Shown here: positions 52,129-62,457 of the stretch, piece after piece
How the letters are laid out: each line of letters begins with the position of its first letter
Position numbering within the stretch: position 1 is the first letter of the stretch
Origin: Dysgonomonas sp. 25
GTDB taxonomy: Bacteria; Bacteroidota; Bacteroidia; Bacteroidales; Dysgonomonadaceae
Direction of reading: 5' to 3'
Length of the DNA stretch: 64,000 bases
NCBI RefSeq assembly: GCF_010501075.1
Contig: NZ_QVMN01000001.1
Location: 186,001-250,000 of the forward strand
Notes under the pieces: generated by a model
Told to the model about the DNA's origin: nothing
The model's input: the letters and a program-made list of their open reading frames with translations, nothing else
The model's database searches: none
Position numbers and translations under genes: made by a program

Positions 52129-54138
52129 ATGCAAAATGAAGATGATTTAAGAGGACTTGCCAAAGTCATGGACTTTATGCGGGCAATCAGTATTTTATTT
52201 GTGGTAATCAATATCTACTGGTTTTGTTACCAGTCGATAGTAAACTGGGGTATCAATATCGGCGTACTCGATAAGATACTATTAAACTTTCAGCGAACCG
52301 CAGGGCTGTTCAGCCATATCCTGATAACGAAAGTATTTGCAGTGATATTTCTTGCTTTGAGTTGTTTGGGGACAAAAGGAGTGAAGGAAGAAAAGGTAAC
52401 ATGGACAAAGATTTACGTTTTCCTTGTTATCGGTTTTATCCTGTTTTTCCTGAACTGGTGGATGCTGTATTTGCCATTACCACTTTCGGCAAACGCTACA
52501 TTTTATATCCTGTCAATGGCGGGCGGATATTTATGTTTATTGGTTGCAGGGGTATGGATGTCCCGGCTACTCAAAAACAATATGATGGACGATGTTTTCA
52601 ATTTGGAGAATGAAAGCTTCATGCAGGAAACCCGCCTGATGGAGAATGAATATTCAATAAATCTTCCATCTCGTTTTTGGTATAAGAAAAAACAGCATAA
52701 AGGATGGATAAACGTAGTGAACCCGTTCCGGGCTACCATTGTGCTGGGTACTCCCGGTAGTGGTAAATCTTATGCTGTGGTGAATAACTACATTAAACAG
52801 CAGATAGAGAAGGGTTTTGCACTTTACTGTTATGATTATAAGTTCCCGGACTTATCGGAAATCGCTTACAATCATCTGATGAACCATTCGGATGCTTATA
52901 AGGTAAAGCCCACATTCTATGTGATAAATTTTGACGACCCACGCCGAAGCCACCGATGTAACCCTATCAATCCGGCTTTTATGACAGATATATCGGATGC
53001 TTATGAATCGGCATACACCATTATGCTGAACCTGAACAGAAGCTGGATTCAGAAGCAAGGCGACTTCTTTGTGGAATCCCCGATTATCCTGCTGGCTGCG
53101 ATTATTTGGTTTCTCAAGATATATAAGGGTGGAAAGTATTGCACATTCCCGCACGCCATCGAGTTCCTGAACCGGAAGTATGCAGACACATTCGTTATTC
53201 TGACTTCCTACCCGGAACTTGAGAATTATTTAAGCCCTTTCATGGATGCGTGGGAATCTCAAGCCCAAGACCAGTTACAGGGGCAAATCGCATCGGCTAA
53301 GATACCGCTATCGAGAATGATAAGCCCAGCATTATACTGGGTAATGACTGGCGATGATTTTACACTGGATATAAACAACCCAGACGAACCAAAGATACTT
53401 TGTGTGGGTAACAATCCCGATAGGCAGAATATTTATTCCGCCGCTTTGGGACTGTACAACAGCCGTATAGTGAAGTTGATTAACAAGAAGGGACAGCTTA
53501 AAAGTTCGGTTATAATTGACGAATTGCCCACGATTTACTTTAGGGGGTTAGATAATCTGATAGCTACCGCCCGTTCTAATAAAGTGGCAGTCTGTTTGGG
53601 TTTTCAGGATTACAGCCAGCTAACAAGGGATTATGGCGATAAGGAAAGTAAAGTAATCCAAAATACAGTTGGAAATATTTTTAGCGGTCAGGTTGTAGGA
53701 GAAACAGCAAAAACATTGTCAGACCGTTTCGGGAAAGTTTTGCAGAAACGTCAGTCTATGACAATCAACCGTCAGGATAAATCAACCTCAATCAGTACGC
53801 AGATGGATAGTTTGATACCTGCCAGTAAAATATCGAATCTTACGCAGGGAATGTTTGTGGGTGCGGTCAGTGATAATTTCGATGAACGAATAGACCAAAA
53901 GATTTTCCATGCTGAAATCGTAGTGGACAACGAGAAGGTAAAGCGTGAAACAGCCCGCTATGAAAAGATACCGGAGATTATCGACTTCCGGGATGCAGAT
54001 GGCAACGACCTGATGAAAGAGCAAATCCAGCTTAATTACGAGCGGATAAAGCAGGATGTTAAGCAGATTGTGATTGATGAAATGGAGCGTATCAAGAATG
54101 ACCCGGATTTACAGCATTTGGTGAAGAGTGAAGAATAA
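52129..54138 (+). CDS. mobC: Type IV coupling protein MobC (VirD4/TraG-like)
   Basis: A 669-residue inner-membrane ATPase that delivers the relaxase-DNA complex to the channel. About four membrane helices occupy residues 18-145. The cytoplasmic P-loop domain has Walker A GTPGSGKS at 207-214. The Walker B-like segment SSVIIDELPTIYF is followed by NKVAVCLGFQDYSQL, typical of T4CPs. It is the last gene of mobABC; the next gene is that of the inserted restriction-modification island. Confidence 0.93.
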   Translation: MQNEDDLRGLAKVMDFMRAISILFVVINIYWFCYQSIVNWGINIGVLDKILLNFQRTAGLFSHILITKVFAVIFLALSCLGTKGVKEEKVTWTKIYVFLVIGFILFFLNWWMLYLPLPLSANATFYILSMAGGYLCLLVAGVWMSRLLKNNMMDDVFNLENESFMQETRLMENEYSINLPSRFWYKKKQHKGWINVVNPFRATIVLGTPGSGKSYAVVNNYIKQQIEKGFALYCYDYKFPDLSEIAYNHLMNHSDAYKVKPTFYVINFDDPRRSHRCNPINPAFMTDISDAYESAYTIMLNLNRSWIQKQGDFFVESPIILLAAIIWFLKIYKGGKYCTFPHAIEFLNRKYADTFVILTSYPELENYLSPFMDAWESQAQDQLQGQIASAKIPLSRMISPALYWVMTGDDFTLDINNPDEPKILCVGNNPDRQNIYSAALGLYNSRIVKLINKKGQLKSSVIIDELPTIYFRGLDNLIATARSNKVAVCLGFQDYSQLTRDYGDKESKVIQNTVGNIFSGQVVGETAKTLSDRFGKVLQKRQSMTINRQDKSTSISTQMDSLIPASKISNLTQGMFVGAVSDNFDERIDQKIFHAEIVVDNEKVKRETARYEKIPEIIDFRDADGNDLMKEQIQLNYERIKQDVKQIVIDEMERIKNDPDLQHLVKSEE

Positions 54139-54184
54139 TATTAAATATTGATTCACTAATACTTATAATATAAATGGTACTTAT

Positions 54185-54221
54185 AGTCCGTAGACTTATA
54201 TTCATCTGTTTGGTACTTTTG
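54185..54221 (+). promoter_or_regulatory. Candidate C-box operator and promoter of the restriction operon
   Basis: A -7 element TACTTTTG (54214-54221) lies 25 bases before the C-protein ATG. The -33 position holds no TTTG but an inverted repeat AGTC-CGTA-GACT (54185-54196), which is the type of GACT/AGTC half-site bound by restriction-modification C proteins. A second related segment, GGTACTT, occurs at 54177-54183 and 54212-54218. An operator over the -33 region fits autoregulation by the C protein. Confidence 0.6.
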
Positions 54222-54245
54222 ACCACAACATAAATTATATAACAT

Positions 54246-54476
54246 ATGAGTAAAACAATATATTCTGATGAAGAAAAAGAATTCCTTAAGCAGATTGGGA
54301 ACAGAATCAGAGAACTTCGATTGAACGCAGAATTATCGCAAGAGAAATTAGCTTTTGAATCTGATTTAGATAGAACATATATTGGATCAGTTGAAAGAGG
54401 TGAGAGAAATGTTGCAATAATTAATCTAAGAAAAATAGCTAGGGCACTAAATGTAGAAATAAAAAGCATATTCTAA
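54246..54476 (+). CDS. XRE-family regulator, C-protein-like
   Basis: A 76-residue helix-turn-helix protein (IGNRIRELRLNAELSQEKLAFESDLDRTYIGSVERGERNVAIINLRKIARALNV), with size and sequence pattern of the controller (C) proteins that time expression of restriction enzymes. Its stop codon overlaps the ATG of the endonuclease gene (TAATGG), giving tight coupling. It should activate or repress its own promoter through the operator at 54185-54196. Confidence 0.85.
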   Translation: MSKTIYSDEEKEFLKQIGNRIRELRLNAELSQEKLAFESDLDRTYIGSVERGERNVAIINLRKIARALNVEIKSIF

Positions 54477-55528
54477 TGGAAAAAAGAGTAGTTAGTATAG
54501 TTTTTCGCAGAATGACTTATGCCGATTTTAGGCATATAAATAAAGTTGGTGGAGAAGAGCAAGGCGGTGGAGGACAATCATATATTGATTTTCCGATTAA
54601 AGACGTATCTCTCGATAAATGGCATCAGTTATTAGGGAGTCCAACGGGTTTTGGTGCAGGAGATAGACCTTATTGGAATTTTGAAATAAATAGTTTAGGA
54701 ATTACACATCCTATAACACTTAAAATATATCAGCGAAGACCTGCTTCCGTGAGCATTGCTTCTCAAAAAATTCACAGTAGAGAATCAAATCGTGTGCCAT
54801 CATGGCATCCCGATAATGGCTTTCCTGACGACTATAATCCGGACTTGCAGAATCTTGTTATATATATAGTTAAGACCATTGAAGGTGAATATTGGGCTGG
54901 TTGGTTTTTGCAAGATTCGATACCTTCTACTTGGGTTGGAAATACTACACTGGGTAGAATGTTTAATGAGCCCGCTGGATATTTAACCTTTAAAAAGAAA
55001 GTGTTCATTGATACTGCAAATTCTCTATGGCCATTTCATTTTAATGCAACGGAAATTGAGAATGAGATTCCAACAGAAGAAGATAAAGAATTGGAATTAG
55101 AATTGGAAGATACATCTCCGAAACTTCAAGAAAATATAAGTCAAAACAAGAAACCTGAATTGACTGAACGTGTTATCCGAATAAGACAGCGTAACAATAA
55201 GATTGTAAAAGAACTAAAAAAACTATATGGGGGTAAATGTCAGATTACAGGTGAAGAACTTACATTTAAAAAAATAAATGGAGAATTTTACTGTGAATTA
55301 CATCATTTGGTTCCATTAGGAGAAGACGGCTCTGATTCTTATGCGAATGCAATCATTGTTAGCCCGCTTATACATAGAATGTTGCACTATGCAAATGTTT
55401 CGGAAATCGATTTAAGCAAAATAGAAAATAATCAGCTTTCCATTGAAATAAATGGAGTCGAATATAAAATAACGTGGCATCCAGAACATCTAAGAATAGT
55501 TGAAGAAGCTGTGAATTCAAAAGACTAG
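54476..55528 (+). CDS. HNH-family restriction endonuclease
   Basis: A 350-residue protein. The C-terminal HNH nuclease domain (about 235-345) has Cys255 in GKCQITG, then the motif with His276-His277 (ELHHLVPLGEDG), Asn291 and His300/His304. The N-terminal 190 residues are not recognised and should recognise DNA. A Glu-rich linker (196-215) joins the two. It is coupled to the C protein and converges with the methyltransferase operon, two bases from its end. The recognition sequence cannot be predicted. The name rests on the nuclease motif and the context of two methyltransferases. Confidence 0.82.
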   Translation: MEKRVVSIVFRRMTYADFRHINKVGGEEQGGGGQSYIDFPIKDVSLDKWHQLLGSPTGFGAGDRPYWNFEINSLGITHPITLKIYQRRPASVSIASQKIHSRESNRVPSWHPDNGFPDDYNPDLQNLVIYIVKTIEGEYWAGWFLQDSIPSTWVGNTTLGRMFNEPAGYLTFKKKVFIDTANSLWPFHFNATEIENEIPTEEDKELELELEDTSPKLQENISQNKKPELTERVIRIRQRNNKIVKELKKLYGGKCQITGEELTFKKINGEFYCELHHLVPLGEDGSDSYANAIIVSPLIHRMLHYANVSEIDLSKIENNQLSIEINGVEYKITWHPEHLRIVEEAVNSKD

Positions 55529-55530
55529 GT

Positions 55531-56607
55531 TTAGATTGTTTTCCTAAGATGAATAAGATATTCGTTTAAGAATGCTTTCTTTTTACTGTCATTACTTTTG
55601 AATCGTTTATATTTAATGTTCTTTTTTGTCACAGTACCATATTGTGACAAAAAAGATATTAAATCCTCAATATCAAGCAAACCATCTTCGCTATAGCTTA
55701 TGAGAAAATCTTGACAATTAGTGTTTTTTATTATCAAGTCAAAAGAATCTCGAATTTTCAATTTCGAACAAAAATTAGAGTATTGATCTCTCCATGGTCT
55801 TAATCCGCTTTCTCCAATAGCTTCCGGCTCATCTTCTCGGGCAATCGTTTCTAGTATATGATAGTTTGCCGCATATTGTCTTTTTATATAGGGAGGGTCA
55901 ATATAACAAATATCGCCATTTAACATAGGAGCAATATCTTCAGCATATCCTTTGTGAATTTTATGTCCAACAGTATTTCCTTTATTTGAAAACAATGTAG
56001 GATGAAGTATTATGTTATCCTCGGCTCTTTTGACGAATTTTGATAAATAGTGCCCGTAAGTTCCCGCGATATTTGCTATGTCATTTACAGCCATTATTAA
56101 ATCATGCAACAATAGAGAATGCTCTTGCTCGGTTATTGCGCCAATGGCTTTAATTCTTTTTATTTCCGCTCTTATGGCATCTATTTTTTTTGCATTTTCG
56201 CTTGTAAAGTATCTCCTTGGTCTCTCCGTATTTTTCGGAGACCCATCTGGACTAAACTCAGTATAAAAATAACCCTCGACAGGATTTAAATCATTCAAAT
56301 ATTTCAATAAATTCTCATAATTGCTTTTTTGATTTTGGCTATAATATTTATCGAAACCATCTATGTTTTTTATATTTTCAAATTTAGGAGGTTTATCCAT
56401 AAAAAGAAATACAGTCAAGTGATGAAATGAATAAGTCATTACATCGACAGCTGAAACTGTGAAGTTGTTTTCTTTTAATGCTAAAGAGAATAAGCCCGTT
56501 CCTGCCATTAAGTCAATAACGTGTGTGGCGTTATTATTTATATTTCGGATTTCTGATATTATAATATCAGAAAGTTTATCTTTTGAACCAATATATCTAA
56601 ATCCCAT
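55531..56607 (-). CDS. D12-class N6-adenine DNA methyltransferase
   Basis: A 358-residue alpha/D12-type adenine methyltransferase: YIGSKDKL at the N-terminus, the SAM-binding loop DLMAGTG (32-38) and the catalytic DPPY (237-240), in the order typical of the class. It protects the restriction site by methylating an adenine. It is the second methyltransferase of a leftward operon, overlapping the preceding gene by 11 bases. Two methyltransferases suggest an asymmetric recognition sequence with one for each strand. Confidence 0.9.
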   Translation of the reverse strand: MGFRYIGSKDKLSDIIISEIRNINNNATHVIDLMAGTGLFSLALKENNFTVSAVDVMTYSFHHLTVFLFMDKPPKFENIKNIDGFDKYYSQNQKSNYENLLKYLNDLNPVEGYFYTEFSPDGSPKNTERPRRYFTSENAKKIDAIRAEIKRIKAIGAITEQEHSLLLHDLIMAVNDIANIAGTYGHYLSKFVKRAEDNIILHPTLFSNKGNTVGHKIHKGYAEDIAPMLNGDICYIDPPYIKRQYAANYHILETIAREDEPEAIGESGLRPWRDQYSNFCSKLKIRDSFDLIIKNTNCQDFLISYSEDGLLDIEDLISFLSQYGTVTKKNIKYKRFKSNDSKKKAFLNEYLIHLRKTI

Positions 56608-58345
56608 CTTTTGAAAATATCTCGTTTGCAGTGCAATTTGTTAAACGTTTTATTGGAATTAACTGTTCTGATGAATTTAGAGTGTCAAATATCTCTAAAT
56701 AGTCTTTGAGCTTTAGCCCATATAGACTTGCTACAAATTGCTCAATAATAATATCTGTTTTCTTAGAAATATTCTTTTCGTTAGAATCTACTATTTCTTT
56801 TTTTATTAATTCTGTAATATCATTGATTTTTTTTCTTAGAATGTCTGAAGAATAATCAATTTCAGGAAAAGGTAAGCTTATCAACATTTTTTGAGTTAAA
56901 TAAGGATGTGTTCTCCATTCATTTTCTCCATATTTCTTAATGAGATAATATGTGATAATTCTAGAGTTGAGAACAGAAAGAACAAATTCTAAAGTTAAAA
57001 ACTTCTTTAACTCTGGTTTTAATTTCAATATATACACAACTTGATTAGTATAAGAGTTATCGTAATCAATGCTTGCTGTAATACCAACCCCAGTTTTCCT
57101 TACAAGAATTTTTTCGCCTTTATATATACTTGGATTCTTATAATTTATTCCATCTTTTGAAATATCCATCCAGCACTTATATCTACTAGTATATCTATAT
57201 AAATCTTCTCCCACTTTGAGTTTCGCACATCCCTTTTCTTCATGTGGATGAATTATCTTTTCAGATTTTATTTGAGCTATATTAATAGATTTATTACAGT
57301 GCTTACATTTAAATATTTCAGATTTAGGATATGGCATCCATTTGCCACATATAGGACATTTACATACAACTCCCTTTTTAGATAATTCTGCCCCTCTCGT
57401 ATTTGTTACTATACGACTAAGAGAAATAGAAGATGTTTCAATTCTTTTTAAAGTACCTTCTTCACTGTTTCTTAAGTCTATGTCAAATAAATAGTTCTCA
57501 TTGGTTGAAAAACGCTGCTGAACAACTTTGTGTAACAATTCATTTTCAACATCTTCTAATGATATTTCTTTTGATAGAATCTTTTTTCTGAAATTTACTG
57601 GAAGTCGCATACAGTCTACTTTGTGAATCTCAGTGGGTTTATTGTTACTTCCAATAACTAATGAACAAGCTCTATTAATTTCGGGAAAGATTTTTTCTCC
57701 CAATCTAGCGATATAGTAAATTGTTGTTTTTTGAGTTAAGTATTTTCTTAGGTTGGTTTGCTCATGATTGAAAATAGAATCAGGTATTATCAACCCATAG
57801 ACTCCGTTTGCCGATAAATTCCTTAAAATTAGCTCTATGAATAATGCATAAATGTCAAATTGTCCTTTTGCAAGAGAATAATTACTACTTAATAAATCAT
57901 TGTCATATTCTTTTAAACTAGCTCCCCATGGTGGATTACTTATTATTACATCAAACTTTCTTTTGTGGTTATATTTATTTCTCAATTTTTTCCATCCTTC
58001 ATTAGATAGTTTTGATTTAAATGGAAATAGACTATCTGTATTAAGTAATTGAATATTAATAGTTGGACTGACTTTACCAAATTCTGAAGAATTATTTATC
58101 GCAACAATATCTTTGTCAATTCCTATAACGTTTTCAATTGTAATATTACTTATTGTTGCTTGACTTATGAAGCTACTTAATAGCATATTATCACCGCATG
58201 CCGGATCTAATAAAGATATATTTTCCTTATTTTTTAAGTATTGGCTTATTTTTTTTGCTAGATAATCAGAAAGGAATTTAGGCGTATAAAAGATTCCGTT
58301 CGATTTTCTTTCATCTATTGTATATAATTCAGTAGCTGTCATCAT
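56597..58345 (-). CDS. N6-adenine DNA methyltransferase with NPPW motif and internal zinc ribbon
   Basis: A 582-residue gamma-class-like enzyme, with the SAM-binding segment DPACGD (47-52) and the catalytic NPPW (137-140). The C-terminal half has a TaqI/Eco57I-like specificity region. Between the two lies a Cys4 zinc ribbon (Cys330, Cys333, Cys347, Cys350 in CPICG and CKHC), a less usual insertion that may help DNA recognition. No endonuclease motif is visible, so it is not a type IIG fusion. It overlaps the regulator gene by 17 bases and the D12 gene by 11. Confidence 0.85.
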   Translation of the reverse strand: MMTATELYTIDERKSNGIFYTPKFLSDYLAKKISQYLKNKENISLLDPACGDNMLLSSFISQATISNITIENVIGIDKDIVAINNSSEFGKVSPTINIQLLNTDSLFPFKSKLSNEGWKKLRNKYNHKRKFDVIISNPPWGASLKEYDNDLLSSNYSLAKGQFDIYALFIELILRNLSANGVYGLIIPDSIFNHEQTNLRKYLTQKTTIYYIARLGEKIFPEINRACSLVIGSNNKPTEIHKVDCMRLPVNFRKKILSKEISLEDVENELLHKVVQQRFSTNENYLFDIDLRNSEEGTLKRIETSSISLSRIVTNTRGAELSKKGVVCKCPICGKWMPYPKSEIFKCKHCNKSINIAQIKSEKIIHPHEEKGCAKLKVGEDLYRYTSRYKCWMDISKDGINYKNPSIYKGEKILVRKTGVGITASIDYDNSYTNQVVYILKLKPELKKFLTLEFVLSVLNSRIITYYLIKKYGENEWRTHPYLTQKMLISLPFPEIDYSSDILRKKINDITELIKKEIVDSNEKNISKKTDIIIEQFVASLYGLKLKDYLEIFDTLNSSEQLIPIKRLTNCTANEIFSKDGI

Positions 58346-58643
58346 TTGCCCTTTCTTTCAGTCCAAAATACTCTTTTTCTATTCTTTTAATTGCCAAATA
58401 AGTAATTTGGTTTATTCCAAATTCTTTTATTATTCTTTCAGAAACTAACATTGTATTCAATTCTATCTCTGATAGAGAAAAATAAGAAGAGATTCTCTTT
58501 ATTTGAGCGGTAGTTGGCAAACGACTACCTCTTTCTATTTTGCTCAATAGAGGAGAATCAATATCCACACCTTTAGCTACCTGATGCAATGTTTCACCTC
58601 TATAACTTCTTATTTCTCTTAAAAAAACTCCAATACTGTTCAT
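58329..58643 (-). CDS. XRE-family regulator of the methyltransferase operon
   Basis: A 104-residue protein (from the ATG at 58643) with an N-terminal helix-turn-helix (GVFLREIRSYRGETLHQVAKGVDIDSPLLSKIERGSRLPTTAQIKRISSYFSL), followed by an unassigned tail (about 65-104). The longer TTG start at 58676 falls in the -7 element at 58674-58681 and is rejected. It heads the methyltransferase operon and should control it. It is not the same kind of protein as the C protein at the other end. Confidence 0.85.
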   Translation of the reverse strand: MNSIGVFLREIRSYRGETLHQVAKGVDIDSPLLSKIERGSRLPTTAQIKRISSYFSLSEIELNTMLVSERIIKEFGINQITYLAIKRIEKEYFGLKERANDDSY

Positions 58644-58673
58644 ATTGTACGATTGTGACTTGTCAACGGGTGG

Positions 58674-58681
58674 CAAAATTA
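58674..58681 (-). promoter_or_regulatory. -7 element of the methyltransferase operon
   Basis: The minus strand reads TAATTTTG, matching TAnnTTTG, 31 bases before the ATG at 58643. Confidence 0.55.
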
Positions 58682-58768
58682 CAAAATATTATCTTATTTG
58701 AGAGGAATTGAGGGGAAAGAATCTGAAAAGTCGTCATAGAAGACATTTAACGCCATTCATAGACATCT

Positions 58769-58805
58769 GCTGCCACCTTCCTAAAAACAGGGTGGCAGCT
58801 TTTTT
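58769..58805 (+). terminator. Terminator right of the restriction-modification island
   Basis: GCTGCCACC (58769-58777) and GGTGGCAGC (58791-58799) form a perfect 9-bp stem followed by six T. No rightward gene ends here. It probably terminated the mob operon before the island was inserted. Confidence 0.88.
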
Positions 58806-58813
58806 ATATCCTA

Positions 58814-58821
58814 TACTTTTG
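58814..58821 (+). promoter_or_regulatory. -7 element of the DUF3945-topB unit
   Basis: TACTTTTG, a full TAnnTTTG match, 42 bases before the ATG at 58863, with ATTTG/CAAAT half-sites (58822-58837) just downstream. Confidence 0.55.
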
Positions 58822-58862
58822 ATTTGACAATCAAATATTTATTCATTTAAAAATCAAAAGTT

Positions 58863-60347
58863 ATGGATGTAAATTCAAACAACAAGTCCGGCTCTGATGA
58901 ACAGATGATGGACATTCTTCTTGTCTTTGACAAGGAAAAGAAAACGATTAATGCCGTAAAAGGTATTGATGAAAACGGGGAACTGCAAACCGTTCCGCCA
59001 AAGCAGGAACACAACAACGATTTCCTGAAAGTGGATAAGCAGGGTAACGCACTTGAGAATTTCTTGAAGAACTTTTTCAGCCAACTAAAAGACCCGACCC
59101 GTTTCAGTTTCTTCAAAGTAGCCCCCGAAGACACCGAACGGACAGTCAAAATCATTCAGGAGAATATCAAGAACCCGACACCTGCTGCCGATGAAATGCT
59201 TGATAAAATCCGTATCGAGCCTAAAGACCTGAAAGTGGAAAATCCGAAAGAATCCACAACACAGGAACAGAAGCCCGATACGAATAAGTATTTCATCGAC
59301 CCTAACAAAATCAACTGGGACGACCTGAAAAATCTGGGTATCACCAAAGAGCAGCTTGAAAAGTCAAAGGCTTTAGAACCTATGCTGCGGGGGTATAAGT
59401 CGCCTTCTACCTTTCCGATTGAAGCCAACTTCGGGTCAATGGTAATGAAAACGGATGCCCGTCTTTCGTTCCGTCCGGACAGTGAAGGAAATGTGGTTTT
59501 GGCAATTCATGGTATCCGTAAAGAACCGGAACTTGACCGTCCGTTCTTTGGACACCAGTTTACCGATGAAGACAAAAAGAATCTCCGGGAAACTGGAAAC
59601 ATGGGTCGGATTGTTGATGTGAAAAACTACCGTACAGGTGAACTTGTACCTTCTTTTATCAGCATCGACAAACAGACCAACGAACTGGTATCCATGAAGG
59701 CTTCGTCCCTCAAACTCCCTGATGAAATAAAAGGCGTTAAGCTGGATGAAAAACAAAAAGCTGCCCTGATGGAAGGTAAAGCGGTATTTCTTGAAAATAT
59801 GATTTCCGCCAAGAACAAGCCCTTTTCTGCCTTTGTTCAGGTCAATGCGGAAAAACGCAGCCTTGAATTTATCTTTCCCGAAAAAGAGCAAAAGCAAACC
59901 CAGCAACAGGGACAACAGCAAAGAAACGACCAGCCCGAAGGGGTGCGTATTCCCAAATCCCTTGCAGGAGTGGAATTATCCGACAAACAGCAAGCTGATT
60001 TGCGGGCGGATAAAACCATTTATGTAAAAGGACTGAAAGATAAAGAAGGTCAGGAATATAACGCCTATGTAAAGGTAAACCATGAAAAAGGGAAGCTGGA
60101 TTTCTACAAATTCAATCCTGATAAAGCGAAAGAGAAAGCCAAAGAAATAACCCCTGCCAACGAACATAAAACACAGGTAGCGGTCAATTCCGAAGGCAAA
60201 ACGAACGAAGCGACCAAGCATACGAAAGAACCTTTGAAGCCCGGACAGGCTACACCTACCGGGGAACAGAAGAAAAAGTGGGAAGAAAAGAAAGAAGAGC
60301 AAAAAACAGACAAACCTAAAAAGTCGCAAGGTCGCAAAATGAAATAA
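58863..60347 (+). CDS. DUF4099/DUF3945 protein
   Basis: A 494-residue, highly charged cytoplasmic protein with a Gln/Lys-rich C-terminal tail. The central part (DPNKINWDDLKNLGITKEQLEKSKALEPMLRGYKSP) is a DUF4099 domain. It is followed by two similar DUF3945-type repeats, each starting with PxxxxGVxL and ending FxQVNAEK or YVKVNHEK (about 275-345 and 370-425). This pair of domains is common next to topB in Bacteroidetes conjugative elements, with no established function. A role in DNA processing is possible. topB begins 28 bases downstream. Confidence 0.85.
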   Translation: MDVNSNNKSGSDEQMMDILLVFDKEKKTINAVKGIDENGELQTVPPKQEHNNDFLKVDKQGNALENFLKNFFSQLKDPTRFSFFKVAPEDTERTVKIIQENIKNPTPAADEMLDKIRIEPKDLKVENPKESTTQEQKPDTNKYFIDPNKINWDDLKNLGITKEQLEKSKALEPMLRGYKSPSTFPIEANFGSMVMKTDARLSFRPDSEGNVVLAIHGIRKEPELDRPFFGHQFTDEDKKNLRETGNMGRIVDVKNYRTGELVPSFISIDKQTNELVSMKASSLKLPDEIKGVKLDEKQKAALMEGKAVFLENMISAKNKPFSAFVQVNAEKRSLEFIFPEKEQKQTQQQGQQQRNDQPEGVRIPKSLAGVELSDKQQADLRADKTIYVKGLKDKEGQEYNAYVKVNHEKGKLDFYKFNPDKAKEKAKEITPANEHKTQVAVNSEGKTNEATKHTKEPLKPGQATPTGEQKKKWEEKKEEQKTDKPKKSQGRKMK

Positions 60348-60352
60348 TTATT

Positions 60353-60371
60353 AACCACAAAAATCCAATTA
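60353..60371 (-). repeat. Short dispersed motif, copy before topB
   Basis: AACCACAAAAATCCAATTA on the plus strand is the inverse of the right half of the tra repeats (TAATTG..ATTTTTGTGGTT). Here it lies 5 to 23 bases before the topB ATG. Confidence 0.6.
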
Positions 60372-60375
60372 TATA

Positions 60376-62457
60376 ATGATAGCAGTAATAGCAGAAAAAC
60401 CCAGTGTGGCAAGGGATATAGCCACCGTACTGGGTGCAACGCAAAAGAATGATGGGAACATTTCAGGTAACGGATACATCGTTACCTGGGCGTTCGGTCA
60501 TTTGGTAGGACTTGCCATGCCTGATGCCTACGGAATCGAAAACTTCAGGCGGGAAAATTTACCCATACTACCGCAGTCGTTCCAGCTTATTCCCCGTCAG
60601 GTAAAAACCGACAAAGGATATAAGCCTGATAGCGGAACGGTTAAGCAACTCAAGGTTATCAAAGAAGTATTCGACCAGTGCGATAAGATTATCGTTGCGA
60701 CTGATGCCGGAAGGGAAGGTGAACTGATATTTAGGTATATCTACCAATATCTTGAGTGCCGGAAACCTTTCGTCCGCTTATGGATAAGCAGCCTGACGGA
60801 TAAAGCCATTCGGGACGGATTGCAGAATCTCAAGAACGGGACAATGTACGATAACCTTTTCCGGTCGGCAAAGGCAAGAAGCGAAGCAGATTGGCTTATC
60901 GGTATTAATGCTTCCCAAGCGTTAAGTATAGCTGCCGGAAGGGGGACATATTCTTTGGGACGGGTACAGACACCCACGCTGGCGATGATATGTTCCCGTT
61001 ATCTTGAGAACAAGAACTTCGTTCCACAGAAATATTGGCAACTGAAATTACAAACCGGGAAAGACAGCATCGAGTTGTCAGCCCTTTCAGAAGAAAAATT
61101 CGGTAGCCAGCAACCTGCCATCGACAAGCTGCAAATAATAAAGGATAGCGGTCAGGTGCAGGTTAAATCGGTGGAATGTAAGGAAGTGAACCAAGAACCA
61201 CCGCTTTTGTATGACCTTACCACCTTGCAGAAGGAAGCCAATACAAAACTTAATTTCTCCGCAGATAAAACGCTGTCTATTGCACAAAAACTGTATGAAG
61301 GTAAGCTGATTTCATACCCCCGAACCGGAAGCCGTTATATATCACAGGACGTTTTCGATGAAATACTGGAACGTATTTCCCTGCTGGAAACTTACGACCG
61401 GTTTGCCGGCTATGCAAAGTCAATGAAAGGTAGCAGCCTGAACCGCCGAACAGTAGATAATAAAAAAGTTACAGACCATCACGCTTTGATTATAACCGAG
61501 AATAAGCCGGGCAGTTTACAGGCGGACGAACAGGCTATATACGAACTGATTGCCGGAAGGATGCTGGAAGCTTTTTCGGAAAAGTGTGTCAAGGAAGTTA
61601 CTTCAATTTCTCTCACCAGTGGCGAGAGTATTTTTGCAGTGAAAGGAACAGTAATAAAGTCTGCTGGATGGCGGGCTGTTTTCAACGCCCAAGAAGAAGG
61701 CGAAGAAAATACCGTTTTGCCAGCACTAAAAGAAAATGAGAATTTACCCCTCTCCGATATTGAGTTGCTGGAAAAGCAGACTAAGCCTAAACCGTTACAT
61801 ACGGAAAGTTCGTTGCTATCGGCTATGGAGAACGCTGGGAAAGAACTGGAAGATGCCGAACTGAAAGCCAGTATGAAGGATTCCGGTATCGGTACGCCAG
61901 CGACACGGGCTGCGATTATTGAAACTCTCTTTACCCGCCAGTATATTATCCGGGAGAAAAAAGCCCTTGTACCGACCGAAAAGGGACTGGCGGTTTACGA
62001 TATAGTCCGGGACAAAAAAATCGCAGACGTGGAAATGACTGGTATGTGGGAAAACGCACTATCCAAGATTGAAAGCGGGGAAATGAATCCCGACACCTTC
62101 CATAAAAGCACAGAAGTTCATGCTTCACAGATAACCAGCGAACTTTTAGGGGTACAGCTCACCTTATCAACGCAGCAGGATTTAATCTGCCCGAAATGCG
62201 GGACAGGTCGGATCCTGCTGTATCCGAAAGTGGCAAAGTGTGATAATATTGATTGCGGGCTGGTTATCTTCCGAAACAAAAGCGATAAGCAATTAACGGA
62301 TAAGCAGGTAACGGAACTGGTAACAGCGAAGAAAACAGGAGTGATAAAAGGTTTTAAGAGCAAAGCCGGAAAGCCCTTCGATGCTTCACTGGCTTTTGAC
62401 GACCAGTTCAATGTGGTATTCGTTTTCCCTGAAAAGAAAGGGAAATCAAGGAAATAA
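60376..62457 (+). CDS. topB: DNA topoisomerase III
   Basis: A 693-residue type IA topoisomerase of the element-borne TopB group. The Toprim domain begins MIAVIAEKPSVARDIA and holds ATDAGREGEL (108-117) with the metal-binding acids. The active-site Tyr is Tyr314 in LISYPRTGSRYIS. A C-terminal zinc finger has CPKCG and CDNIDCG (about residues 600-635). It relaxes and decatenates single-stranded DNA and probably helps processing of the transferred strand or excision intermediates. It follows the DUF3945 gene closely and ends in a terminator. Confidence 0.96.
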   Translation: MIAVIAEKPSVARDIATVLGATQKNDGNISGNGYIVTWAFGHLVGLAMPDAYGIENFRRENLPILPQSFQLIPRQVKTDKGYKPDSGTVKQLKVIKEVFDQCDKIIVATDAGREGELIFRYIYQYLECRKPFVRLWISSLTDKAIRDGLQNLKNGTMYDNLFRSAKARSEADWLIGINASQALSIAAGRGTYSLGRVQTPTLAMICSRYLENKNFVPQKYWQLKLQTGKDSIELSALSEEKFGSQQPAIDKLQIIKDSGQVQVKSVECKEVNQEPPLLYDLTTLQKEANTKLNFSADKTLSIAQKLYEGKLISYPRTGSRYISQDVFDEILERISLLETYDRFAGYAKSMKGSSLNRRTVDNKKVTDHHALIITENKPGSLQADEQAIYELIAGRMLEAFSEKCVKEVTSISLTSGESIFAVKGTVIKSAGWRAVFNAQEEGEENTVLPALKENENLPLSDIELLEKQTKPKPLHTESSLLSAMENAGKELEDAELKASMKDSGIGTPATRAAIIETLFTRQYIIREKKALVPTEKGLAVYDIVRDKKIADVEMTGMWENALSKIESGEMNPDTFHKSTEVHASQITSELLGVQLTLSTQQDLICPKCGTGRILLYPKVAKCDNIDCGLVIFRNKSDKQLTDKQVTELVTAKKTGVIKGFKSKAGKPFDASLAFDDQFNVVFVFPEKKGKSRK

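Follow-up and report, generated by a model that had tools for sequence, protein, structure and literature searches.

How a restriction-modification (R-M) system that enters a new cell postpones cutting until protection is complete is a standing question. The known ways of delaying the endonuclease, as given in the accessible text of PMC12707154 and PMC3874152, include a controller (C) protein, fusion of a repressor to the methyltransferase and antisense RNA. The question is raised anew by a locus in Dysgonomonas sp. 25 that has a different regulator at each end. The DNA analyzed (the window) is a stretch of 64,000 nucleotides (contig NZ_QVMN01000001.1 of assembly GCF_010501075.1, positions 186,001 to 250,000 of the forward strand), and the locus is an island of five genes. 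Those for regulator C and endonuclease R run rightward, those for regulator X and the methyltransferases M2 and M1 run leftward, and the two halves are convergent. With a probability of roughly three in four, the island is a Type II R-M system carried as defence cargo by a conjugative element, probably with an asymmetric target and with its halves separately controlled by C and X. A fuller version of this reading is held with less assurance and is only somewhat favored. It combines two independent, unrelated switches with an undescribed endonuclease family (a B3-like DNA-binding domain joined to an HNH nuclease) and assigns X to a large unnamed family of Bacteroidota autorepressors that would act at TTTGAC-N7-GTCAAA on the -7 box of operons for defence and toxin-antitoxin systems.

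The endonuclease and methyltransferase core

All five genes lie where the initial annotation had placed them as convergent or coupled genes, and the coordinates (Table 1) agree with its statement that two bases separate the stop codons of R and M1. C and R overlap by a single base (TAATG), X and M2 by 17 bp, and M2 and M1 by 11 bp. The NCBIfam scan gave no match above the curated cut-off for any of the five proteins, and no helicase or ATPase match was found among them with Pfam, PADLOC or NCBIfam.

The core formed by R, M1 and M2 was found in 22 loci: the window, three alphaproteobacterial plasmids (R identity 40-43%), 17 loci from a species-level collection (best-segment identity 37-64%, two fragments included) and one viral contig. 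Wherever the three genes are complete (17 loci, 16 of them distinct), they stand as separate genes in the order R> <M1 <M2. The earlier description of a self-contained R-M unit is supported. The incomplete loci comprise two that stop right after an R split in two frames (L034, L035), one that stops within M1 (L030), one in which R is open but M1 and M2 are fragmented (L017) and one with M2 in two frames (L032). Pairwise distances of R, M1 and M2 correlate over 16 loci, a set that includes near-identical ones (rho 0.72, 0.78 and 0.86, each reached in 0 of 2000 permutations); the three genes thus co-diverge as a conserved module.

By record title, the carriers are Bacteroidota, Ignavibacteria, Deferribacteraceae, Dehalococcoidia, Alphaproteobacteria, Pseudoalteromonas, Micrarchaeota and Bathyarchaeota, with Acidobacteriaceae for two fragments, and many are metagenome bins. 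The closest relatives of R are in Bacteroidota and an Ignavibacteria bin (L021). Searched with the single sequence, R had no relative among viral contigs, one HNH-side match among phages and 24 matching plasmid records, three of them full length; among 295 genomes of the order it was found at full length in the host genome alone, with ten partial matches on the HNH side. An alignment search found R in two of 395 genomes of the phylum (the host and one taken as L021) and, among 345 of the class, in the host alone. The family therefore appears to be rare. The loci from a Bathyarchaeota bin (L023) and an IMG/VR viral contig (L036) have equal R scores and lengths and are seemingly copies of the same core, which may travel on an archaeal virus unless the contig was misbinned. 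On the alphaproteobacterial plasmids (L015, L016, L017) the gene immediately upstream of R is annotated as a recombinase; L024 and L027 have frames of similar appearance, and in several cases a ParA gene lies past M2.

R carries the conserved catalytic residues of an HNH nuclease, judged by an alignment of 17 sequences in which H276, H277, N291 and H300 are invariant. In Pfam the HNH signal is weak (1.2e-3, under the gathering score) and only HNH families are given, while the best match to a PDB sequence, EcoKMcrA (E value 3.2e-10, on the HNH side), makes the assignment firm. The PADLOC model mREase_IV matches all 17 R homologs and, in the window R, for which alone the position is known, it covers residues 182-309; the matches listed for the homologs include none to a Type II endonuclease model of PADLOC. 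The best conserved block of ten residues, GGGQSYIDFP (residues 31-40), lies in the N-terminal half.

That half had been called unfamiliar in the initial annotation. No covering model was found for it in Pfam, NCBIfam or PADLOC, so the word holds for family models, but structure prediction gives it a fold with known relatives. In an AlphaFold2 model built from 15 sequences, with a low-confidence linker near residues 191-227, the N-terminal part matches the B3 domains of LlaJI.R1 (Z 8.6 over 122 residues, 3.3 A) and BfiI (Z 8.4 over 141 residues, 3.8 A), followed by plant LEC2 (8.0), UbaLAI (7.9) and EcoRII (6.4). Foldseek places BfiI at the top (E value 6.5e-4, probability 1.00, TM-score 0.30), the sole match below E 0.001. 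The C-terminal part matches the HNH domains of TagI (Z 8.5) and EcoKMcrA (6.4). The lists of fold matches are incomplete, and families not listed, among them domains that read modified bases (SRA, NEco, EVE), may match as well. R is thus predicted to combine a B3-like DNA-binding domain with an HNH nuclease. Such an N-terminus would place it alongside BfiI, EcoRII, LlaJI and UbaLAI, within a known theme to which it would bring a different nuclease.

The two methyltransferases, both conserved across the complete loci, belong to different classes of adenine methyltransferase. The DPPY motif (residues 237-240) and other motifs of M1 are kept in all 17 homologs. No PDB relative was found for the single M1 sequence at E 0.1 and its profile gave one marginal match (3sm3, 0.0095), and thus no guide to its target. 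M1 also matches the first half of PADLOC PDLC03287 (646 positions, 6.7e-65), perhaps the fused M.FokI. M2 is matched in Pfam by N6_Mtase (3.3e-19), Eco57I and TaqI_C (1.4e-11), and its model (predicted local distance difference test score, pLDDT, 88) resembles M.BseCI (Z 28.5) and CamA (28.1) over most of its length. The four cysteines noted previously in this gamma-class enzyme (C330, C333, C347 and C350) are indeed invariant in 16 of 16 homologs, in keeping with a structural zinc ribbon as far as alignment can tell.

The target site is perhaps asymmetric, with one methyltransferase for each strand. This is argued by analogy with LlaJI, which uses B3 recognition of an asymmetric site and has two methyltransferases for that reason (PMC12707154, in the accessible text). 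The R model resembles the N-domain of LlaJI.R1, and both systems have two methyltransferases. However, LlaJI cleaves by means of a McrB-related nucleoside triphosphatase (NTPase) and a McrC-related nuclease, whereas the island encodes just one HNH protein and no NTPase. BfiI, NgoAVII and CglI, like the window R by prediction, carry a B3 recognition domain within the endonuclease polypeptide, and BfiI is described in the available portions of PMC4081073 and PMC4267653 as a Type IIS enzyme with an asymmetric site. The nuclease of these enzymes is of the phospholipase D type rather than HNH, the B3 domain is C-terminal in BfiI and N-terminal in R, and CglI and NgoAVII both require an ATPase partner. 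EcoKMcrA and TagI have an HNH domain related to that of R. In the accessible part of PMC7145662 the N-terminal NEco domain of EcoKMcrA reads modified cytosine and TagI is an SRA-HNH enzyme; R differs from both in its predicted B3-like domain and its two adenine methyltransferases. MnlI, HpyAV and MboII are HNH Type IIS enzymes with asymmetric sites (PMC4081073), and R would share their catalysis and perhaps the asymmetry; the portion of that source available mentions no B3 domain in them, and R lacks a PADLOC Type II endonuclease match in its list. No B3-HNH endonuclease was found in the literature searched, which had REBASE and most subscription papers outside it and included sources accessible in part. 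The core itself is present beyond the host genome.

Two regulators and their candidate operators

The protein at the left end has the features of a typical controller protein by sequence: it is a small XRE protein (HTH_3, 1.4e-13) encoded directly upstream of R, and its closest PDB relative is C.AhdI, followed by other C proteins. Its predicted binding site (C-box) has two mismatches to the canonical double box GACTTATAGTCNGTNGACTTATAGTC. In the 64 kb, a search for double C-boxes with up to three mismatches gave this one match (none in 100 shuffles), and a form fitted to the window site gave one match with up to two mismatches in the 3.74-Mb assembly. The Bacteroidota -7 promoter element has the consensus TAnnTTTG. 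Ten bases separate the end of the C-box from the downstream element TACTTTTG, a spacing at which bound C would occupy the position of a -33 element. Published C-boxes have the form GACT-tat-AGTC with a central GT (PMC4824078 and PMC3758141, in the text available), and the window box is of the same form. Between positions 53001 and 60000, half-operators of C with up to two mismatches on the + strand were found only at 54178 and 54193 and none at the X-M2-M1 promoter, where a weaker site is possible. The 11-base half-operator was not found, at the same tolerance and on the + strand, at the regulator promoters of L019, L020, L021, L028 or L033. By eye, another repeat, GCTAACTATAGTATG...GCATAyTATA, was seen upstream of C in L020 and L021; in a Pseudoalteromonas bin (L028:11975-12220) a C-like gene heads M2 rather than R, with GACTATAGTC upstream of it, also by eye. 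C resembles C.AhdI and C.Esp1396I in size, HTH_3 domain, overlap with R and form of the C-box. It differs from them in that the search for C operators gave none at the M promoter of the window, and in the presence of a second, unrelated regulator.

X does not appear to be a C protein. It scores 1.7e-3 at best with the Control_protein model, against 1.1e-22 for C, has no C-box match at its promoter and has a different candidate operator. By its homologs, X belongs to an XRE family other than that of C, one that heads many R-M and HepT-type operons. Of 344 genomes searched in the order, 48 (the host genome counted) have homologs (29-43% identity, E 1e-8). Of the 53 downstream proteins available, 12 are HepT-like and the remainder are mixed; the domains among them include N6_Mtase (9), Eco57I (8), N6_N4_Mtase (7), ResIII (7), D12 (4) and C5 methylase (2), where one protein may hold several domains and 25 of 28 families are listed. 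The claim of two unlike regulators, one at each outer end, is sustained, each heading an operon. Only C is a C protein, and X has an operator class of its own.

Upstream of X-family genes lies an inverted repeat, TTTGMC-N7-GWCAAR. It was scored in 55 of 59 X loci, those dropped being L059, L063 and L074, whose start was mis-inferred, and L089, with 13 bases of upstream DNA. The pattern is matched at 10 or more of its 12 positions in 42 of the 55 loci (dinucleotide shuffles: mean 1.07, maximum 5) and perfectly in 26 (shuffles: 0). In 24 of the 42 the left half-site supplies the TTTG of TAnnTTTG, TA dinucleotides making up 9.4% of the DNA scanned. The X proteins of the window and of L020, the other locus with both regulators, are 46% identical in alignment and have the half-sites TTTGCC and GACAAG in common. 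They alone among 55 aligned X proteins have the helix variant IDSP, IDQA being common elsewhere. The candidate operator of the window overlaps a -7-like box upstream of X-M2-M1, and X is therefore predicted to be an autorepressor of the methyltransferase operon. Operator and box together have one exact match in the host genome, as does a reversed control pattern. The first candidate for the X operator, TTGACAAGTC alone (found once in the window, with 0.10 matches expected), was rejected as part of the longer inverted repeat.

Two further observations concern the family. Proteins of 195-198 aa with an X-like helix-turn-helix domain and an extra domain head HepT-like genes and have operators scoring 11 or 12 of 12 in L038, L039, L042, L044, L047, L051, L057, L060, L064, L070, L072 and L082. 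A variant, TTGGAC-N7-GTCCAA, is seen in L054 and L069 (both halves) and in L041 and L078 (left half), all four counted within the 42, and may be a second operator class.

Regulators are less constant than the core. Both ends are regulated as in the window in only 2 of the 17 complete loci (the window and L020). L021 has C only, and L019 and L033 have a looser C-like HTH_3 protein (2e-8 and 2e-11) upstream of R, with a gap. In L022, from a Micrarchaeota bin, a 52-aa protein without a Pfam match overlaps M2 and a regulator like HFX_2341/Csa3 (PF19810, DUF6293_C; L022:7213-7941) lies just upstream of R. Small genes upstream of M2 encode 85 aa in L023 and L036 (one weak Pfam match, obtained with the L023 copy) and 68 aa in L026 (no Pfam match). 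In the alphaproteobacterial loci, some of which have small genes upstream of M2, a protein search found no close C- or X-like neighbor. Since the regulators vary between loci, the two switches are seen here as additions to an older core.

Table 1. Coordinates in the window of the island, its genes and its predicted regulatory sites.
Feature	Position	Strand	Description
Whole cargo island	54139..58739		Limits: coupling-protein stop codon and start of right-flank homology
C-box	54178..54203	+	Predicted C binding site; two half-operators, TACTTATAGTC-CGTA-GACTTATATTC
-7 element of C-R transcription	54214..54221	+	Putative; TACTTTTG, match to TAnnTTTG
C	54246..54476	+	76 aa; putative XRE controller of endonuclease; PADLOC Control_protein 1.1e-22; C.AhdI (1y7y) 3.7e-17
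R	54476..55528	+	350 aa; endonuclease; predicted B3-like domain ~1-190, low-confidence linker, HNH ~230-340
M1	55531..56607	-	358 aa; D12 (alpha-class) N6-adenine methyltransferase; MethyltransfD12 (PF02086) 2e-29; PADLOC MTase_II 1.1e-65
M2	56597..58345	-	582 aa; gamma-type N6-adenine methyltransferase; TaqI-type target-recognition region; putative Cys4 zinc ribbon C330-C350
X	58329..58643 (58676 with alternative TTG start)	-	104 aa; XRE, heads X-M2-M1 operon; HTH_31 3.2e-8
X operator	58659..58677	-	Predicted autorepressor site; TTTGCC-N7-GACAAG
-7-like element	58674..58681	-	TAATTTTG, by comparison with TAnnTTTG; TTTG common with X operator

Proposed mechanism and alternative explanations

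In the proposed mechanism, R would recognize its unmethylated target through the B3-like domain and cleave through the HNH domain, while M1 and M2 would modify adenine in the common site, one strand each, an asymmetric site requiring two methyltransferases. After entry, the X-M2-M1 operon would fire from its own promoter, and protection would therefore precede cutting. Accumulating X would then bind the inverted repeat over the -7 box and limit methyltransferase output. The C-R operon would be slow at first, would next be activated by C bound to the C-box that closely precedes the -7 element, and would later be restrained by C as well. The earlier claim that each half has its own control thus gains a candidate operator for each half, with one match per pattern in the assembly, but it describes the two loci with both regulators and not the core at large. 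A sigma-70 promoter scan (30 matches against 26.8 in shuffles) was not above chance. The terminator scan gave one match against 1.7 in shuffles and none at the R/M1 junction, so transcripts of the convergent halves may interfere with each other.

The kinship of its HNH domain would allow R to be a nuclease of Type IV, dependent on modification as EcoKMcrA and TagI are, which lies by chance beside methyltransferases that are solitary or have another role, and the mREase_IV matches in 17 of 17 homologs, the lack of a listed Type II endonuclease model and the best PDB match all agree with that. However, the Type IV matches of the window R are confined to its HNH side (residues 182-310), and its N-terminal half matches B3 folds, which read unmodified sequence in LlaJI and BfiI. 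In addition, M1, whole or partial, faces R in all 20 loci with DNA past R (L034 and L035 end there), and R co-diverges with M1 and M2. We consider this Type IV reading quite improbable. That the island is a decayed or inactive remnant is very unlikely: broken relatives exist (L017, L032), but all five frames of the window are open and the invariant motif residues are kept in its R, M1 and M2.

The place of X in the system is open to a different challenge. X could be a passenger or an antitoxin-like regulator of other genes, in which case the picture of two switches would fail; its homologs head many kinds of operon, HepT-like and mixed, and X occurs in only 2 of 17 complete loci. Against this, X directly precedes and overlaps M2 in both of these loci, methyltransferase and ResIII domains are frequent downstream of its homologs, and the candidate operator lies in the X-M2-M1 promoter and has, together with the -7-like box, no other exact match in the host genome. 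A passenger role seems unlikely. It is very unlikely that C alone governs both halves and X is inert. C.Esp1396I does bind operators of both the C-R and the M genes (PMC3758141, accessible text), but no C-box was found at the X-M2-M1 promoter, and the double C-box is single both in the 64 kb and in the genome. In the sources accessible, RptR and XRE.MhoVI are described, like X, as small regulators heading modification operons. RptR differs in binding TAGCTA repeats and in its link to Type I systems, and XRE.MhoVI in heading one operon of two methyltransferases and an endonuclease. In the same literature search, no Type II system with a C protein and a second XRE repressor was found.

Several points weigh against a B3-HNH Type II system with two switches. 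The B3 assignment comes from one model (mean pLDDT 80, predicted TM-score 0.54), and the Z values of R are close to the range that unrelated folds can reach, with low whole-chain TM-scores (BfiI 0.30); at Z of about 8 the N-terminal matches are nevertheless hardly chance, because the leading ones agree on one fold. The closest HNH relatives of R are the modification-dependent EcoKMcrA and TagI. Recognition by a B3 domain does not imply asymmetry, the NgoAVII group of B3 enzymes reading the quasi-symmetric GCSGC (PMC4081073, in its available part). X and a close C are absent from most complete loci and hence dispensable for the core. The operator pattern is missed by 13 of the 55 X-family loci, which score below 10 of 12 (L045, L062, L065, L071, L073, L077, L079, L083, L084, L085, L088, L092, L094), and the M, W and R letters that give the window site 12 of 12 were chosen with the sites in view. 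Against the strict family consensus the window site, like that of L020, scores only 9 of 12. On 28 loci set aside (L067-L094 together with the window and L020) the strict consensus is matched at 10 or more positions in 16 (shuffles: 0.17), but it was fixed after all loci had been inspected, making this a check on the degenerate letters and not a blind test.

A fusion of B3 and HNH domains would extend the B3 endonucleases by another type of nuclease, and its cutting specificity may prove useful. The natural variants, with C only, with another helix-turn-helix protein or with no regulator found, make the contribution of each switch testable by swaps and the family a good model for how R-M systems stay safe for their host. 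The X operator may serve as a searchable mark for defence operons in the host phylum.

The cargo site

The island lies between a coupling-protein gene on its left and a DUF3945 gene on its right. Its upstream neighbors encode MobC_2, a MobA/VirD2 relaxase and the TraG-like coupling protein, and its downstream neighbors a DUF4099/DUF3945 protein and a topoisomerase. At 30.9%, the G+C content of the island is below that of the coupling-protein gene (41.6%) and of positions 58740-62457 (44.1%). In another genome, a related element carries a different cargo of 2.9 kb between the same flanks (94.4% and 94.7% identity); the homology stops on the left at the stop codon of the coupling protein (54138) and resumes on the right at 58740.

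Gene content in the gap between the coupling-protein and DUF3945 genes differs between related elements. The survey covered 12 stretches downstream of similar coupling-protein genes, one of them from the host genome itself; cargo was inspected in six (L115-L118, L120, L123), and 10 proteins were scanned from four (L115, L116, L117, L123). Nine of the 10 matched models, the remaining one being a 667-aa protein without a match. The proteins matched in these four are a cytosine methyltransferase with an NsnA-like protein, a Type III R-M system with a HEC-01A ATPase, AbiEi/AbiEii, and PDC-S02 with a SIR2 protein. With defence cargo that varies between related elements, the gap looks like a defence-cargo site. 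The host genome has one other D12 methyltransferase, at G000:C58:20512-21255, which is separated by roughly 6 kb from a second coupling-protein-like match.

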